Below, piece by piece: positions 7,068 to 36,958 of a stretch of 36,958 nucleotides of DNA. The stretch spans positions 1-36,958 of the forward strand of contig CAMJZA010000034.1 in the NCBI GenBank assembly GCA_946410085.1, given 5' to 3'. Origin of the DNA: an uncultured Treponema sp. Its GTDB lineage: Bacteria > Spirochaetota > Spirochaetia > Treponematales > Treponemataceae. Below the pieces are notes generated by a model. It was given only the letters and a program-made list of their open reading frames with translations, was not told where the DNA came from and ran no database searches. Position numbers and translations under genes: made by a program. Numbering within the stretch: position 1 is the stretch's first letter; every line of letters starts with the position of its first letter.

Positions 7068-7472
7068 TTACACCGGTTCCTGCGTTCCGCCGTCGTCGAG
7101 GATGTGCTTGTCGGGGTAGATTTTCGCCATGAGCTTTTGGATGGAGCGGACGAGTTCCGCCACTTCTTCCAGGTTCTTGTCAAGGCTGAGGGTATAGAAT
7201 ATCTGGGTGCCGACTTTCCGCGGCTTTATGATGCCGTAGTCCTTGAGGACTTTCAGGTGGTGGGAAATCGCAGGCCGGGAAAGCTTGGACTTTGCGCTCA
7301 GGTCAGAAACGTTGATGCCTTCTTCGTTGCTCGCCTGTCCTTCCGCTATGTCAAGGACAAGCTGCTGGCGCACCTCGTCGCCGAGGGCAATGAAGAGGGG
7401 ACCGCATGAGCTGAACAGCAGCCTGATCCGGTGCCAGTCTGATTCATCGATAGAAAATAGCCTTCCTTCCAT
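7068..7472 (-). CDS. ArsR/SmtB-family winged-helix repressor without metal-binding cysteines
   Basis: A 134-residue regulator. The winged helix (residues about 54-98) shows VSDLSAKSKLSRPAISHHLKVLKDYGII, the classic ArsR recognition pattern, followed by an arginine-containing wing (KPRKVGTQIFYTL). The only cysteine is near residue 23, so the metal-sensing CxC-type site of ArsR and SmtB is missing and a non-metal signal is likely. ATG 7472 is preferred over the upstream ATG at 7532, which lies within the -35 box. It is divergent from the MMPL gene. The shared intergenic region carries two copies of a 16-bp operator, and a third lies before the LolA-like gene. I infer that it represses itself and the transport genes. 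Confidence 0.88.
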   Translation of the reverse strand: MEGRLFSIDESDWHRIRLLFSSCGPLFIALGDEVRQQLVLDIAEGQASNEEGINVSDLSAKSKLSRPAISHHLKVLKDYGIIKPRKVGTQIFYTLSLDKNLEEVAELVRSIQKLMAKIYPDKHILDDGGTQEPV

Positions 7473-7503
7473 ACTCTTTCTTCCCCCGAACTCCCCTTTC
7501 CGT

Positions 7504-7532
7504 ATAATATGCATCGGACACATTTTTGTCAA
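7504..7532 (-). promoter_or_regulatory. Predicted promoter of the ArsR-family gene
   Basis: On the minus strand TTGACA (7532-7527), a 17-bp spacer and TATTAT (7509-7504). Operator copy 1 lies four bases upstream of the -35 box. Confidence 0.75.
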
Positions 7533-7683: not shown

Positions 7684-10600
7684 ATGAAGTTTTTGAGGGC
7701 GTTTTTTAAGCATCCCCTGATCATCATCATTGTTTCCGTCGTACTGACGGGGGCGACGGGATTCTTCCTGAAAGACCTGGAAATGGATAATTCCACGAGG
7801 ATGTTCTTCCCGCAGAAGGACGTTTCCTATGTACGGCTTGAAAATACCGAGGCCGAATTCGGCAGTATGCTCGCCATCGGCGTCAGTATCGAAGCCAAAG
7901 ACGGTTCCATTCTGACTCCCGAGTACATAGAAGTCATCCGCGAGATAAGCGACAAGGTGCTGGAGCTGTCTAACGTCGAGGACGTGGATTCCCTGACGAA
8001 CATCGACTTCGTCTGTGATCAGGACGGGGCCATTTCCGCAAATCCGCTGATTCCCGACAGCTATACCGGAACGGCGCAGGACATTGCGCAGCTGGAAAGG
8101 CGGCTCGCCGAGTGGGACGACATGTACAACCGCGTCATCATCAACGACGAGGGAACCGGAACCCAGATGTCCATTTCCCTGCGTCCGAAGAGCGACATCC
8201 TGCTTGCCTTTGATGAGGCAAAGGAAGCCCTGAAGCTGGCGAAGGAAAGCAATGCGCCTGCCGAAGAGCTTGCCGCCGCAACAAAGGCGTACAAGGAGGC
8301 AAAACGGGCCAAAAAGCTTGCTCCGCCGGATTCCCAGCGGCTGCAGGACACCCTGTATGAGGTAAAGAAGATTACCGAGGCAGCCTGTGAGGGTCATAAC
8401 CTTTCCTACAAGTTCTACGGTGATCCGGTGGTTTCGGACAACTGCAAGAGCTTCATGCTCTCCGACCTGCTCCGGCTCATCCCGCTCGTCATCGTGGTGG
8501 TCATCATCACCCTGTACCTGAGCTTCCACACGCTGGACGGAACAATCCTGCCCCTGCTGACGGTGCTCATGTCGACGATCATGTCCTGCGGCCTGATGGG
8601 CTTCTTCCACTTTACCTTTACGCTCGTCGCAAGCGTCATTCCGGTTGCCCTGATAGCGGTCGGATCCGCCTACGGCATCCACGTCCTGACCCACTACTAC
8701 ATAGAGCTGAGCAACGTGAAGGGTGAGATGACGAAGGAACTGTATGAGGAGGCCATCTTCAAGGGACTTAAGGAAGTCTTCATGGCCGTCCTCCTTGCAG
8801 GCATAACGACCATCGTCGGCTTCGTCTCGCTCATTACCAGTCCGCTGGAACCGCTGCACAGCTTTGCAATTTTCGCTGCAATCGGCGTGGCGATGGCGCT
8901 CCTCCTGTCCATCACCTTCATTCCGGCGCTCCTCCTGCTGAAGTCCTACAAGAACCTCAAGAAGCGGGGCCGCATCGAGCAGCTGTCCGACAAGGTACGG
9001 CAGAAGCTTGACCGGGCGCAGCAGCTGCGCGGCGGAAAATCCGTCACGGAAGCGAGCGGCGATACCCTGTACATGATATACCGCTTCTTCTGCGGCACGA
9101 AGGTCCGCCTCATCATCACCTCGCTTGTCATCGTCGTCATATCCGTCACCGGCCTGCTCAAGCTGAAGGTTGACACCTCGCTGATCAGCTATTTCCCCCG
9201 GAATTCCCAGCTGAGAACCGACATTGACTACGTCAATGAGGAATTTGCCGGTACGAACAGCGTGTACTTCACGATTACCGGGCAGGAGAAGGGCGACATC
9301 ACGAACCCCGAGCTGCTCAAGGCGGTAGATGACCTGGAAGTCTACCTGAAGGGCAAGTACCCGGAAGTCGGCAAGATCATTTCACTTGCGACCTTCATCA
9401 AGCGGATAAACCAGGTCTGGCATGTGCCCGCACAGCCTGCAGGGCTTGAGGACGGTGCATCCGCCCTTGAGGGCAGCGGGAGCCTTGACGACAGCTTTGC
9501 TGATGACGGCTGGGACAGCGGCTTCGGCTCAGACGACAGCTTCGGCGACGACGGCTGGGACAGCGGCTTCGGCTCAGACGACAGCTTCGGCGACGAGGAC
9601 TGGGACAGCGGCTTCGGCTCAGACGACAGTTTCGGCGACGACGGCTGGGACAGCGGCTTCTCCGAGGCAGAATCCCCCGCATCGGACGGCGGCGACAGCG
9701 GTATGCCGGACGGTTGGGTTGACCCGAACGACGCCTATGCCGCAGCCCTGTCCAAGCAGGTTACCGGACAGGAAATCCTCGACATGTTCAACAAGGCCTA
9801 TGTCGCAGCCGGCGGCAGGACCGCAAGCCTGGAAAAAATCGTCGACGAGCTGATGAAGCAGATGAACTACAACGGCATGGCCTACTATGAGGTTCCGTAC
9901 GACCCCGCCAAGTACCCCGTGGCAAGCCGTGAAGAGCTTTCCGGCGTCGTCAGCGGCTACCTGACCCTGCTTTCCGGCTCGCTTGACCGTTTCATTGACG
10001 ACGACATCAATCCCAAGGAAATGCGCATCACCTGCCAGCTGCGGGAGCACTCAACCGAGGTTTCCGGCAAGATCATCGCGGACGTGAAGCAGTACGCCGC
10101 AGCGCATTTCCCGGCCGGCTACACGGTCGAAGCAACCGGTACGGGCGAGATGGAGTACACGATGACGAACATGATCATATCCAGCCAGTTCATGAGCCTC
10201 ATCGTCTCCCTGCTGTCCGTGTTCATCATCATCACCCTGTCCTTCAAATCTGGATGGGCAGGCCTGCTGGGAGCCGTCCCGCTGGCCTTTGCAATCATGC
10301 TGAACTACATGACGATGGGCTTTGCGAAGATTAACCTGGACTTCATCACGAGCATCATCGCATCCGTCGTCGTCGGCGTCGGCATTGACTATACGATTCA
10401 CTTCCTGACGACCTACCGTGAGGAACGGTCCCGGAGCCGTGATCTGGTGGAGGTAACGAAGAATACCTTCAAGAAGAGCGGCCACGGCATCGTAACGAAC
10501 GCGCTTGCCGTCGGACTGGGCTTCATCGTGCTCTGCCTGTCCAAGTTCATCGTCCTGCGCTACATCGGAATCCTTGTCGCAATCGAAATGATTGCATCAA

Positions 10601-10713
10601 GCTTCCTTGCCATGACGATCATCCCGGGCATCCTGAACATGACCGATCCCAAGTTCATGCGGCCCAAAGAAGAGCCGAAGGCCGTCATCGTCACGGACGA
10701 GGACGAAGAGTAG
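7684..10713 (+). CDS. RND/MMPL-family inner-membrane transporter with an acidic repeat insert
   Basis: A 1009-residue permease of the RND/MMPL superfamily, which moves lipids or other hydrophobic substrates using the proton gradient. The two halves each have one membrane segment, a large periplasmic loop and five more segments: segment 1 near residues 12-28, loop to about 260, segments to about 420; segment 7 near 475-493, loop to about 830, segments to about 982. The paired motifs GSAYGIHVLTHYY and GVGIDYTIHFLTTY mark the symmetric halves. The second loop holds four 15-residue acidic repeats (residues about 608-667) rich in D, G, S, W and F. A GAGGTG ribosome site precedes the ATG. With the next two genes it forms an inner membrane-periplasm-outer membrane set; substrate unknown, lipid transport inferred. 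Confidence 0.9.
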   Translation: MKFLRAFFKHPLIIIIVSVVLTGATGFFLKDLEMDNSTRMFFPQKDVSYVRLENTEAEFGSMLAIGVSIEAKDGSILTPEYIEVIREISDKVLELSNVEDVDSLTNIDFVCDQDGAISANPLIPDSYTGTAQDIAQLERRLAEWDDMYNRVIINDEGTGTQMSISLRPKSDILLAFDEAKEALKLAKESNAPAEELAAATKAYKEAKRAKKLAPPDSQRLQDTLYEVKKITEAACEGHNLSYKFYGDPVVSDNCKSFMLSDLLRLIPLVIVVVIITLYLSFHTLDGTILPLLTVLMSTIMSCGLMGFFHFTFTLVASVIPVALIAVGSAYGIHVLTHYYIELSNVKGEMTKELYEEAIFKGLKEVFMAVLLAGITTIVGFVSLITSPLEPLHSFAIFAAIGVAMALLLSITFIPALLLLKSYKNLKKRGRIEQLSDKVRQKLDRAQQLRGGKSVTEASGDTLYMIYRFFCGTKVRLIITSLVIVVISVTGLLKLKVDTSLISYFPRNSQLRTDIDYVNEEFAGTNSVYFTITGQEKGDITNPELLKAVDDLEVYLKGKYPEVGKIISLATFIKRINQVWHVPAQPAGLEDGASALEGSGSLDDSFADDGWDSGFGSDDSFGDDGWDSGFGSDDSFGDEDWDSGFGSDDSFGDDGWDSGFSEAESPASDGGDSGMPDGWVDPNDAYAAALSKQVTGQEILDMFNKAYVAAGGRTASLEKIVDELMKQMNYNGMAYYEVPYDPAKYPVASREELSGVVSGYLTLLSGSLDRFIDDDINPKEMRITCQLREHSTEVSGKIIADVKQYAAAHFPAGYTVEATGTGEMEYTMTNMIISSQFMSLIVSLLSVFIIITLSFKSGWAGLLGAVPLAFAIMLNYMTMGFAKINLDFITSIIASVVVGVGIDYTIHFLTTYREERSRSRDLVEVTKNTFKKSGHGIVTNALAVGLGFIVLCLSKFIVLRYIGILVAIEMIASSFLAMTIIPGILNMTDPKFMRPKEEPKAVIVTDEDEE
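9505..9684 (+). repeat. 45-bp in-frame tandem repeat, 4 units, in the MMPL gene
   Basis: Units start at 9505, 9550, 9595 and 9640 with an exact 45-bp period; a half unit precedes them and the last is truncated. Each encodes a version of DGWDSGFGSDDSFGD. Length change in this repeat stays in frame and would only lengthen or shorten the periplasmic loop. Confidence 0.95.
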
Positions 10714-10789
10714 GTTCGGAAACGCAGGGGGAAGGGAAACGGGAGCTTGAAAAACAGCACGAATCCTGTAACCTTTCGCCTGTCAATCC

Positions 10790-10805
10790 GTTTAATCTTT
10801 TGAAC
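10790..10805. promoter_or_regulatory. Operator copy 3 (GTTTAA-N4-TTGAAC)
   Basis: GTTTAATCTTTTGAAC has the same arms as copy 2 and lies 70 bases before the LolA-like gene. This suggests that the gene has its own ArsR-controlled promoter besides read-through from the MMPL gene. I could not identify a convincing -35/-10 pair here. Confidence 0.65.
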
Positions 10806-10874
10806 ATTCAAGAAAAGCAGATCGTGCTTTCCTTGAGAAGAAATGAAAACTTTTTTTTGCAAGGGAGATGTACT

Positions 10875-11684
10875 ATGAAAATGATTTCCAAGGGCTTTAC
10901 GGCTATGGCTTTTGCTTTGACCTTCGCCGCCGCTGCGGCATTTGCTGACGAAAAGGGGACCGCTGTCATGCAGGCTGCCCTCGACGTCGAGAAGCCCAAG
11001 TTCTCCAAGTCCATGGTCGAGATGAAGCTGAAGGACCTGAAGTCCGGCGACGAGGAAGTCCGCCAGATCATGGAGTACGGCCGCAACTACGATGACGGTT
11101 CCGGCCACAAGGTGACGGACATGGTCATGCTCTTCCAGTCACCGGCGAACATCAAGGACACCCGCTTCCTCCAGAAGGAGAATTACGGCAAGGATGACGA
11201 TAAATGGATTTACCTGCCCGCACTCAAGAACACCCGCCGCGTCAACACGAGCGAGGGCAGCAAGGCATTCGTCGGTTCCGATGCGTCCTATGACGATATG
11301 TCCACCCGCGAGATTGACGAGGACGACCACCAGTATCAGGGAGTCGAAGAGAAAAATGTCCGCGGTACGACCTATACCTGCGACAAGGTAAAGGAAGTTC
11401 CCCACGACAAGAAGAACAGCCAGTACAGCTACCGGATTACCTGGGTCGATCAGGCAACCCGCGTGCCGGTCTATACCGAGATGTACGACAAGGACGGCAA
11501 GCTCGAAAAGACGCTCGAGGTTCCGGTCATCGTCAACTACAAGGGCTATACGATTACCAAGGAAGCTTACCTGACCAACGTGCAGAAAAAGCACTCCACG
11601 GCCCTGATAATCAAGAAACTTGCCGTAGACGAGGCAATTCCCGACCGCGTGTTCACGGCAGACTTCCTGAAGACGGGAAAATAA
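10875..11684 (+). CDS. Periplasmic LolA-like protein (outer-membrane lipoprotein-sorting family)
   Basis: A 269-residue exported protein. The first residues (MKMISKGFTAMAFALTF, then an alanine-rich stretch) form a signal peptide with a likely AFA/D cut and no lipobox cysteine, so it should be soluble in the periplasm. The mature part reads like the LolA-like family (PF17131): a KSMVEMKLKD strand, a central KWIYLPALKNTRRV segment, SDASYDDMSTREID, YRITWVDQATRVPVYTEMYD and YKGYTITKEAYLTNV. Family members have a lipid-binding open barrel and are often encoded beside RND/MMPL permeases. ATG 10875 follows an AGGGAG ribosome site by seven bases. Likely a hydrophobic cargo carrier between the MMPL protein and the outer membrane. 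Confidence 0.85.
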   Translation: MKMISKGFTAMAFALTFAAAAAFADEKGTAVMQAALDVEKPKFSKSMVEMKLKDLKSGDEEVRQIMEYGRNYDDGSGHKVTDMVMLFQSPANIKDTRFLQKENYGKDDDKWIYLPALKNTRRVNTSEGSKAFVGSDASYDDMSTREIDEDDHQYQGVEEKNVRGTTYTCDKVKEVPHDKKNSQYSYRITWVDQATRVPVYTEMYDKDGKLEKTLEVPVIVNYKGYTITKEAYLTNVQKKHSTALIIKKLAVDEAIPDRVFTADFLKTGK

Positions 11685-11720
11685 GGGATTTTTCCCCTCC
11701 GTACCTGGCTCTGTGCATGA

Positions 11721-11760
11721 AATGGACTCGGGCTGCCGGCCTGAGTCCATTTATTTTATT
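11721..11760 (+). terminator. Rho-independent terminator after the LolA-like gene
   Basis: A 13-bp stem (11721-11733 with 11739-11751, one G-T pair), a five-base loop, then TATTTTATT. It separates the LolA-like gene from the outer-membrane protein gene. Confidence 0.85.
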
Positions 11761-11861
11761 CTTTTCACTAGATTAAAATTATAAAAAGTGATATACTTTT
11801 TCTATATAGTGCGGACCTGTGTCCAAGGCTTGCTAGAGCAAAGGGAAGGATTAGGAATACT

Positions 11862-13649
11862 ATGAAGATTAAAAAACTGGCGTTCTGTGCTGTTACAGTG
11901 TGCATGCTGACATTTACTGCGGTCGCTCAAGATGATTGGGACGGAGGCTGGGATGACTCCGGTACGGAATCATCCGATGACGGCTTCGGCTCCTTTGATG
12001 ACTCCGGTTCAGATTCTCTCATCGGTTTCGGCAGCAGTGCTTCCGGCAGCGCCATCACCTTCAGCGGGCGGCTGACCTTTGACGGACGCTATTACTTTGC
12101 AAAGGATGATTCAGAGTACTTCAGAACCAGTTACATGTCCTTCGATTCCGAAAACCTCCGCTTCCTGCAGGAACGGAGGCTGACGACGATGATCCGCTGG
12201 AATGATACCTATCCTGATGTCTATAACCTGACGGACCAAAAGAAGCGCTACTTCGATGATCTGGGCTACCGCGAAGTCGATTACGACGATAATGAGATTG
12301 CAACCATTCCTGCCGCCCGCCTGGGCGTCGCTTACAGCGGCAACAAGGCAGACGCAAGCCTTTCCCTGAACCTGACAAAGCAGACCCTGCGGAAATATCA
12401 GGAGGACATCATCGACGAGATGATTCTCCGCGGCTATTTCTTCGACAACCGTTTCACGGTCGAAGCTGGAAAGATGAAGGTTGTCTGGGGCAAGGGCGAC
12501 AAGCTCCACGTTCTGGACAATTTCAATGCAGACGACTACACGGACTTCATCATTCCCGACTACATTGACCGCCGCATCAGCACGCCGATGCTCCGTCTGG
12601 CATACTCCTTCCCCACGAAAGCCCCCCTTTCCGTTGAAGCGCTCTGGACCCCCTTCCTGCCGACCGACCGCTTTGCAACGGAAGGCGTTTGGACGCCTGC
12701 AGCCTATGCAAAACTGTCCTACCTGACGCAGTCCATCATCGCATGGGACTACACACGGGGAACCATGCTCGCATCAGATGTTTCTTCATTCGAAACCGAC
12801 GACCTCTTTCCCAATACGCACAACATCAGGTACTCGCAGGGCGGTTTCAAAGTCGGCGGAACGGTTGCCGCACTTGACTGGGGTGTCAGTTACTACATCG
12901 GCCGCTACAAGCAGCCTTCCGTAAACCTGGACAAAACCGTCACGCCGATACAGACCTGCCTGCTGTATAAGGCTGCCGCCAAACAGTATCTGGAACTCGC
13001 AGAAAAAGCAGCGAATGCAGGAGATGCGGCAGCGGCGGCAAACTATGCGACGCTTGCAACGAATTCCGCAACGGCCGCAACAAATGCCCTGAACTATATA
13101 GGCCTTCCGTCCCTCGATTATGACCGGAAGCAGACTGTCGGCCTTGAGTTCGCTGCCGTCCTGGGCCGTTTTAACCTGCGCAGTGAAGCGGGCTACAATT
13201 TGACGAACGATATGGCCGGCGACGACCCCTGGGTCCACAACAACTCGATTCAGTGGCTCTTCGGCTTCGACTTTGACCTGCCGATCAGCAACCTCAACGT
13301 CAACATCCAGGAAACGGGAACCTATATTCTCGGCAGCAACAATATTAAGGACTGGGATTTCGCCGAATACGACGTAGACTATGATCCCGAAAGCCGCTAT
13401 ACGAACGACAAGCTCGTCGTGAATATCTCCGATTCCTGGCTGAATGACCGCCTTAAGCCCGAACTTACCTTCCTGTGGGGACTCGAGCGGGGCGATTTTG
13501 TCTTCCAGCCAAAGCTGACCTATGCACCGAATCCCTACGTCTCATTCTCGCTGAGCGGCGTCATGATTCATGCAAAGGATGAGTACAGCGAATTCTATGC
13601 ATGGAAGAACAATAACTTCGTCAATTTCGGAGTTAAGCTGGAGTTCTAG
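11862..13649 (+). CDS. Outer-membrane beta-barrel protein (DUF1302-like) with an acidic N-terminus
   Basis: A 595-residue exported protein. Signal peptide with a likely cut after AVAQ, then about 35 residues rich in D, G, S, W and F (DDWDGGWDD, DDGFGSFDDSG) that resemble the acidic repeats of the MMPL protein. The rest has the alternating aromatic strands of a barrel (SGRLTFDGRYYF, FFDNRFTVEAGKMKVVWG, PKLTYAPNPYVSFSLSG) and ends in FGVKLEF, a terminal Phe typical of BAM substrates. An alanine-rich insert lies near residues 368-411. Elsewhere DUF1302-type barrels co-occur with MMPL and LolA-like/DUF1329 genes, so I infer it is the outer-membrane partner. An AT-rich upstream region (11755-11812) with a TATACT probably holds its own promoter; no ArsR operator is visible there. 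Confidence 0.75.
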   Translation: MKIKKLAFCAVTVCMLTFTAVAQDDWDGGWDDSGTESSDDGFGSFDDSGSDSLIGFGSSASGSAITFSGRLTFDGRYYFAKDDSEYFRTSYMSFDSENLRFLQERRLTTMIRWNDTYPDVYNLTDQKKRYFDDLGYREVDYDDNEIATIPAARLGVAYSGNKADASLSLNLTKQTLRKYQEDIIDEMILRGYFFDNRFTVEAGKMKVVWGKGDKLHVLDNFNADDYTDFIIPDYIDRRISTPMLRLAYSFPTKAPLSVEALWTPFLPTDRFATEGVWTPAAYAKLSYLTQSIIAWDYTRGTMLASDVSSFETDDLFPNTHNIRYSQGGFKVGGTVAALDWGVSYYIGRYKQPSVNLDKTVTPIQTCLLYKAAAKQYLELAEKAANAGDAAAAANYATLATNSATAATNALNYIGLPSLDYDRKQTVGLEFAAVLGRFNLRSEAGYNLTNDMAGDDPWVHNNSIQWLFGFDFDLPISNLNVNIQETGTYILGSNNIKDWDFAEYDVDYDPESRYTNDKLVVNISDSWLNDRLKPELTFLWGLERGDFVFQPKLTYAPNPYVSFSLSGVMIHAKDEYSEFYAWKNNNFVNFGVKLEF

Positions 13650-36774: not shown

Positions 36775-36958
36775 AGCAGGCCATGTGCGACATACACGCC
36801 AGCCCATGTGTTGGTCACCCGACAGCCCATTCGTGCCACCCCCGACAGTCCATTCGTGTCATACCTGACAGTCCATTCGTGTCATACCTGACAGTCCATT
36901 CGTGTCATACCCGACAGTCCATTCGCGTCATACCTGACAGTCCATTCGCGTCATACCC
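36775..36958 (-). repeat. 23-bp tandem repeat array, 8 units, reaching the window edge
   Basis: Units start at 36775, 36798, 36821, 36844, 36867, 36890, 36913 and 36936 with an exact 23-bp period, and the last ends at the final base. Read on the plus strand the unit begins GACAGTCCATTCGTGTCAT. On the minus strand it reads CTGTCAGGTATGACACGAAT and matches units of the left array at about 19 of 23 positions. TGTCA-TACC-TGACA forms a short hairpin across each unit junction. Units nearest smpB are the most diverged and those at the edge the most alike. Confidence 0.93.

Follow-up and report, generated by a model that had tools for sequence, protein, structure and literature searches.

The window analysed here is a stretch of 36,958 nucleotides from an uncultured Treponema sp. 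(contig CAMJZA010000034.1, assembly GCA_946410085.1), in which Pfam family searches and open reading frames (ORFs) define a plus-strand operon encoding, in this order, an MMPL/RND-type inner-membrane transporter, a LolA-like carrier and an outer-membrane β-barrel (Table 1). The two membrane proteins carry similar acidic-aromatic stretches, and this pairing reaches well beyond its own genome, to Treponema at large and many other spirochaetes. The transporter scores 141.9 bits against PF03176 (cut-off 20.5), which places it in the MMPL/RND family, and shows weak matches to MmpL3, HpnN and Dispatched chains. The carrier scores 176.9 bits against PF17131 (cut-off 30), has only a weak match to DUF1329 and is a LolA_like member with a LolA-type fold, modelled by AlphaFold2 at a mean predicted local distance difference test score (pLDDT) of 90.4. 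Its fold matches 9tp6, 3bk5 and 4z48 with template modelling (TM) scores of 0.79-0.81, the nearest being LolA3 of P. gingivalis (9tp6, TM 0.81), a protein whose role is left open in the available text of PMC13103446 and PMC11885536. The barrel model (pLDDT 75.6) finds its best structural matches among porins, at low TM, and in Pfam the barrel matches only Porin_O_P, below the cut-off of that family. No match of the barrel to DUF1302 appears in Pfam at E up to 0.001, which leaves it outside the DUF1302 barrel family, and a profile search of solved structures returned no match.

The acidic segment of the MMPL contains 23 D/E and 12 F/W/Y residues and no K/R. It is flanked by transmembrane-like stretches at residues 467-501 and 829-859 of the hydropathy profile and, given the topology of RND proteins, probably forms part of the second periplasmic loop. 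The four 15-residue repeats described in the original prediction are borne out as a 45-bp tandem array at 9487-9660 (3.9 copies, 93%), composed of three full units, the third of which reads DEDWDSGFGSDDSFG, and a shortened fourth. The predicted mature N-terminus of the barrel reads QDDWDGGWDDSGTESSDDGFGSFDDSGSDSLIGFGSSA, with 11 D/E, five aromatic residues and no K/R; DDWDGGWDDSG, which had been placed at its very start, is present there but follows a Q. In the AlphaFold2 model residues 14-61 have a pLDDT below 50, and the tail is without secondary structure up to the first strand, which begins at residue 65.

The likeness of the two stretches stands out from their own genome. A codon pattern for D-x-W-D-x-G-[FWLC] has four matches in the whole genome, all four in the MMPL and barrel genes, and none in the reversed control. 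A 413-kb sample of the genome, consisting of the window and 20 sampled stretches with 716 ORFs of at least 100 aa, was scanned for stretches made of 10-residue windows with at least nine of D/E/F/W/Y/G/S/A/T, at least two acidic and at least two aromatic residues and no K/R/H. By this rule, which was set after the data had been seen, the MMPL segment and the barrel tail rank first and second in length (64 and 30 aa), while the next-longest stretches, of 23 and 22 aa, are without the repetitive D/F/G/S look. Both scans dispose of the objection, foreseen in the original prediction, that the motif might be common in unrelated proteins of this genome. The likeness resides at the protein level, since the Asp codons GAC:GAT stand at 19:1 in the MMPL segment and at 4:6 in the barrel tail and the longest exact DNA match between the two is 12 bp; on the same evidence, transfer of the stretch from one gene to the other, by DNA copying or gene conversion, was rejected. 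Nor is the motif a general feature of envelope proteins: a codon pattern for DFGDFG has 41 matches in 98 genomes (reversed control, 4), of which 32 lie, as read from their positions, in MMPL or barrel genes; the other nine fall into short frames (six) and large acidic proteins of unassigned function (three). Large acidic proteins with DFGDFG (L374, L377 and L379; open frames of 742-1005 aa) are encoded outside the MMPL-barrel system in three Treponema genomes.

All comparisons were made within one phylum. Among 98 genomes of the genus, searched at E up to 1e-60 for the MMPL and up to 1e-20 for the barrel, each gene is found in 68; both are present in 67 genomes, neither in 29, the MMPL only in one and the barrel only in one, the two single-gene genomes each being about 71-72% complete. 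In the family the barrel occurs in 123 of 195 genomes and in 11 of 20 genera. A set of 85 pairs was built from the fetched MMPL and barrel loci, with the longer L041-L094 superseding L012-L040 where fetched; left out were L065 (masked, broken MMPL), L076 (partial MMPL) and MMPL loci for which barrel DNA was not fetched or found, such as L062, L068, L072 and L090. By the rule given above the acidic-aromatic segment is present in all 85 MMPLs and in 82 of the 85 barrels, with styles alike within pairs, a positive outcome of the check on homologous pairs put forward in the original prediction. The three exceptions among the barrels have technical causes or are borderline: the gene is broken in L058, its start was mis-picked in L164, and the tail of L167, QDSFFDDSNFNDES, falls just below the rule. 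Within the MMPL loop the segment follows the KRxNQV block (site B only) in 60 of the 82 pairs, precedes the LTNPEIL block (site A only) in 18 and occupies both sites in four. An apparent MMPL clade without the segment was rejected, as its members carry it at the second insertion site. Such movement between sites would be easily borne by a short linear motif on a tether, but scarcely by a folded element. In some genomes the barrel is encoded apart from the MMPL, with a LolA paralogue of its own, and both tails are still kept. The barrels of L138, L142 and L280 lie beside two consecutive LolA-like paralogues, away from the MMPL gene.

The segments occur in several styles (DDWGD, DFGDFG, SFFDD, xPSFGDD and PPLGF[DE]), which tend to agree within a pair. 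The similarity of aromatic-centred tripeptide spectra is 0.46 for own pairs against 0.24 for others (82 pairs, p=1e-4 in a permutation that removes shared ancestry only in part) and 0.41 against 0.19 with 23 pairs at least 35% apart. Distances between MMPL segments correlate with those between barrel tails after removal of the MMPL core distance (partial Mantel r=0.46, p=5e-4, n=82; r=0.36 with n=45). In a hand-made, dereplicated set of 43 systems, with segment ends set by hand, the longest shared string has a mean of 4.2 against 3.0, above all 20,000 shuffles. An MMPL agrees just as closely with the barrels of near relatives (0.50 at <25% distance) as with its own, and the matching is therefore one of clades. 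Distant matched dialects, given as MMPL/barrel, include DSFFDD/DSFFDD (L165), SFFEE/SFFEE (L313), LPSFGDD (of the xPSFGDD style)/LPSF-PGFGDE (T. ruminis, L277) and PPLGFE/PPLGFD (L321). T. ruminis carries two systems with differing dialects, each agreeing with its own partner, so that genome-wide composition is not the cause. True swaps of partners are confined to G151, T. ruminis, G418 and G427 (the rows for G145 and G112 use L165 of G151 as first system); the own partner is favoured over the crossed one in T. ruminis and G427 and in one direction only in G151. The matched change across species expected of a shared docking motif is therefore seen, loosely where single pairs are concerned.

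Tryptophan content follows that of the partner (rho 0.70) and not GC content (0.05 and 0.16), and a GC-driven choice between W and F was rejected on these values. They also bear on the least probable of the readings considered, in which the stretches share no function and are acidic low complexity produced by repeat slippage and a shared mutation bias. The MMPL repeats of the window are indeed young tandem copies, but the segment is kept over many genera while its position shifts between two sites, its codons differ from those of the barrel gene and nothing comparable is found in the remaining sampled genome. Binding of calcium or another metal, by which the stretches would stiffen or sense the periplasm, was one of two explanations offered originally and is now disfavoured as very unlikely. 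Asp-rich sequence with Gly/Ser spacing would suit such a role; however, it is the aromatic context that co-varies and not acidity alone, and an acidic ligand pattern is not kept in all homologues, the barely acidic PPLGF[DE] pairs (L321) persisting with few such residues.

The tails are not universal among related systems. The own genome has three MMPL-LolA pairs, and only the MMPL of the window bears the segment; it is absent from the pairs at G000:C90:622-3950 and G000:C27:21094-23822. No barrel gene adjoins the C90 pair. The C27 pair likewise has none by the barrel profile, which matches G000 once, in the window. In more distant systems an MMPL without the segment usually accompanies a barrel without an aromatic tail (L328, L330, L346, L353, L356, L358, L365, L366 and L370); exceptions with a barrel tail and no MMPL segment are L360, L367 and L363/L371, and weak tails are seen in L359 and L361. 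Barrel tails can thus do without an MMPL counterpart, an argument for some other binding partner. The barrel tail of L369 (G241) represents another style, consisting of DDEPSLPSGLG repeats without aromatic residues, and the MMPL of this system is cut by the contig end.

A possible counterpart of the tails is found in the carrier. In the tail-bearing set of 133 carriers, which includes near-duplicates and a few carriers not adjoining an MMPL, position 98 is basic in 131 (R in 128, K in three). It is basic in none of three tail-less carriers (G, S and S), the aligned residue of 9tp6 is G, and in further systems without a tail the residue is S (L346), S (L353), G (L354), S (L356), S (L358), A (L365), G (L366) or V (L369). 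The systems L360 and L367, with a barrel tail only, have K98. Arg/Lys98 thus tracks the presence of a tail, with exceptions, and alignment points to it as a candidate docking residue.

On balance we lean towards the view, drawn from sequence comparison, that the two tails are matched short linear motifs docking the same LolA-like carrier in a three-part trans-periplasmic conveyor. The inner-membrane pump, the soluble carrier and the outer-membrane barrel would together convey a hydrophobic molecule, and both tails, putatively disordered, would dock at a single shared site on the carrier. The MMPL tail may catch the empty carrier, or let the loaded carrier go, at the inner membrane, and the barrel tail would catch the loaded carrier at the outer membrane, with weak multivalent repeats allowing fast exchange. 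Since the motif is the same at both ends, the carrier would be held by one end at a time. This proposal builds directly on the presence and position of the tails, the predicted disorder of the barrel tail, the co-occurrence of the two and their matched change of style; it further supposes a periplasmic site for both tails, the carrier as their partner, a lipid-like cargo and a direction of transport. Docking to a LolA-like protein, for which the case is indirect, is the better of the two explanations in the original prediction, whose interpretation as a whole is supported in part.

If the carrier is what the tails bind, a tail confined to the barrel is understandable; it is less so if the tails bind only each other. 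In the latter case the MMPL and barrel tails would bind like with like and tie the pump to the barrel across the periplasm, with the carrier at work between the two. Matched styles within pairs are expected from self-association by identical motifs and the repeats suggest multivalency, but the strong acidity of the two tails should drive them apart unless a counter-ion intervened, the systems with a barrel tail and no MMPL segment are difficult to accommodate and the intervening carrier is left without a role, so that bridging of this kind appears unlikely. Less probable again is a common third partner, such as a chaperone, the BAM complex or an unseen adaptor, that would read both tails in place of the carrier of the operon. 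The carrier is so far only a candidate partner, which leaves room for such a factor; however, a general factor should fix one motif per genome, whereas T. ruminis and genus g15 carry two systems with differing matched dialects, and the paralogous MMPLs of the own genome are without the segment.

Several observations weigh against docking of both tails to the carrier. Pair specificity is loose, the own barrel being best or tied-best by longest shared string in only 10 of 43 systems, and the comparison of own with crossed partners fails in G418. A basic residue occurs at position 98 without a tail in L357 (K) and L370 (R), and L363/L371 have A at this position with an FEFEEP tail; the carriers of systems without tails are, moreover, only distantly related, so that the pattern at position 98 may reflect phylogeny. 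Carriers are near neutral overall (mean net charge +2 over 133 proteins, -1 for that of the window), and bulk electrostatic attraction by a basic carrier was accordingly rejected as an explanation of docking. In L342 and L343, where a second barrel comes with a LolA-like gene of its own, the tail has degenerated to an acidic tyrosine-containing stretch (QDYEEEPFEP). In L312 the MMPL segment is present and the barrel tail lacks it. The original prediction had named loss of the segment from one partner as evidence against itself; with the second MMPL site counted, none of the MMPLs of the 85 pairs shows such loss, and single-partner cases occur far off in the phylum, in L312 and in the systems that keep the barrel tail alone.

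LolA-fold proteins hold periplasmic segments of inner-membrane proteins, as in RseB-RseA, MucB-MucA and LolA-LolC, where RseA and MucA are inner-membrane proteins. In eukaryotic lipid-transfer proteins the FFAT motif, a short acidic tract with aromatic residues, is a docking tag for lipid transfer between membranes; its receptor is unrelated and the likeness to the tails is an analogy only. To our knowledge the Lol pathway has no matched tails. Titles of structure entries record solved structures, or complexes with inner-membrane partners, of the LolA-fold proteins RseB, MucB and E. coli LolA. The Lol pathway (LolA, LolC/LolE, LolB; 6f3z, 8orn) shares the carrier superfamily and the binding of the carrier by an inner- and then an outer-membrane partner, but employs an ATP-binding cassette pump and a lipoprotein receptor where an MMPL and a barrel are found here. 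In RseB-RseA and MucB-MucA (3m4w, 6jau, 6in9) a LolA-fold protein likewise holds a periplasmic segment of an inner-membrane protein, although in stress signalling and not in transport, and that segment is not known to have an outer-membrane twin.

The system resembles known HAE3-RND/LolA-like/DUF1302 exporters, to which the paired tails add a new element. The closest described cassette, AmeABCD of Castellaniella defragrans, comprises the HAE3-type RND protein AmeD, the DUF1302 barrel AmeA, the DUF1329/LolA-superfamily protein AmeB and the periplasmic AmeC, and thus likewise encodes an RND pump, a LolA-superfamily periplasmic protein and an outer-membrane barrel together; paired acidic-aromatic tails are not mentioned in the available text (PMC6394551). 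In contrast to AmeABCD, the carrier here belongs to PF17131 with a weak DUF1329 match, the barrel has no DUF1302 match and no AmeC-type second periplasmic gene lies between the regulator and uvrA, the rest of the genome not having been searched for one. With no fourth protein beside the operon and no DUF1302 match, the system is not classed as an AmeABCD-type member. P. putida PP_0765, PP_0766, PP_2018 and PP_2019 are a DUF1302 protein, a DUF1329 protein, a periplasmic protein and an RND pump, and in AlphaFold co-folding the DUF1329 protein is predicted to touch both barrel and pump; the authors suspected two alternative complexes (PMC10866462). The predicted shuttle-like contact of a LolA-superfamily protein with both membrane partners is the point of likeness; the available text of that study reports no shared disordered motif (PMC10866462). 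The outer-membrane barrel PcoB likewise has a disordered N-terminal region, which acts on a periplasmic protein encoded in the same operon, but this region is His/Met-rich and serves copper efflux, and an inner-membrane pump twin is not mentioned in the available text (PMC12509749). A literature search by titles and abstract openings, subscription journals not covered, found no description of paired tails in such a system, and none joining DUF1302 with Treponema was found under the same restriction to non-subscription journals.

Further features surround the operon (Table 1). Promoter-like sites are found on both strands near the gap between the regulator and the MMPL gene. Terminator-like sites in the operon region do not exceed shuffles in number; the stem between carrier and barrel genes could set the carrier:barrel ratio. 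Near both contig ends lie 23-bp tandem repeat arrays (1707-1924 and 36817-36958), seemingly of one family in opposite orientation, and an 8-bp array, GCGGGCTT, occupies positions 1-62.

Table 1 Features of the operon and its surroundings in the window
Feature	Position	Strand	Basis or remark
Divergent ArsR-type winged-helix regulator	7068..7532	-	PF01022, E=2.7e-8; possible operon regulator
MMPL/RND-type inner-membrane transporter, 1009 aa	7684..10713	+	PF03176, E=3e-41, two stretches
Acidic D/W/F/G/S segment, MMPL residues 600-664	9481..9675	+	Site B, putative second periplasmic loop
LolA-like periplasmic carrier with signal peptide	10875..11684	+	PF17131, E=4.3e-52
Codon of Arg98 of the LolA-like protein	11163..11165	+	Numbering of alignment A2; candidate docking residue
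Terminator-like stem-loop between carrier and barrel genes	11720..11752	+	15 pairs, T-rich tail; possible attenuator
Outer-membrane β-barrel, 595 aa	11862..13649	+	Many strands, porin-like fold
Acidic-aromatic tail, mature barrel N-terminus, residues 23-60	11928..12041	+	Directly before first strand (65-78)
uvrA	Downstream of barrel gene		Named from own sequence, not by family search

How soluble carriers find the correct membrane partners, and then release them, is an open question in RND/MMPL lipid-type transport. It is conceivable, though we advance this tentatively, that the tails are a periplasmic address label, in which pump and barrel would show the same system-specific disordered motif, one carrier would recognise both ends of its route and a matched dialect would keep paralogous conveyors in one cell apart. 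If true, this would be a targeting code for lipid conveyors made of short linear motifs in bacteria. The occurrence of the same motif on two unrelated membrane proteins in most spirochaete systems examined provides a directly testable handle on that question, in the form of a pair of peptides, a small soluble carrier, a single candidate residue and natural dialect variants.

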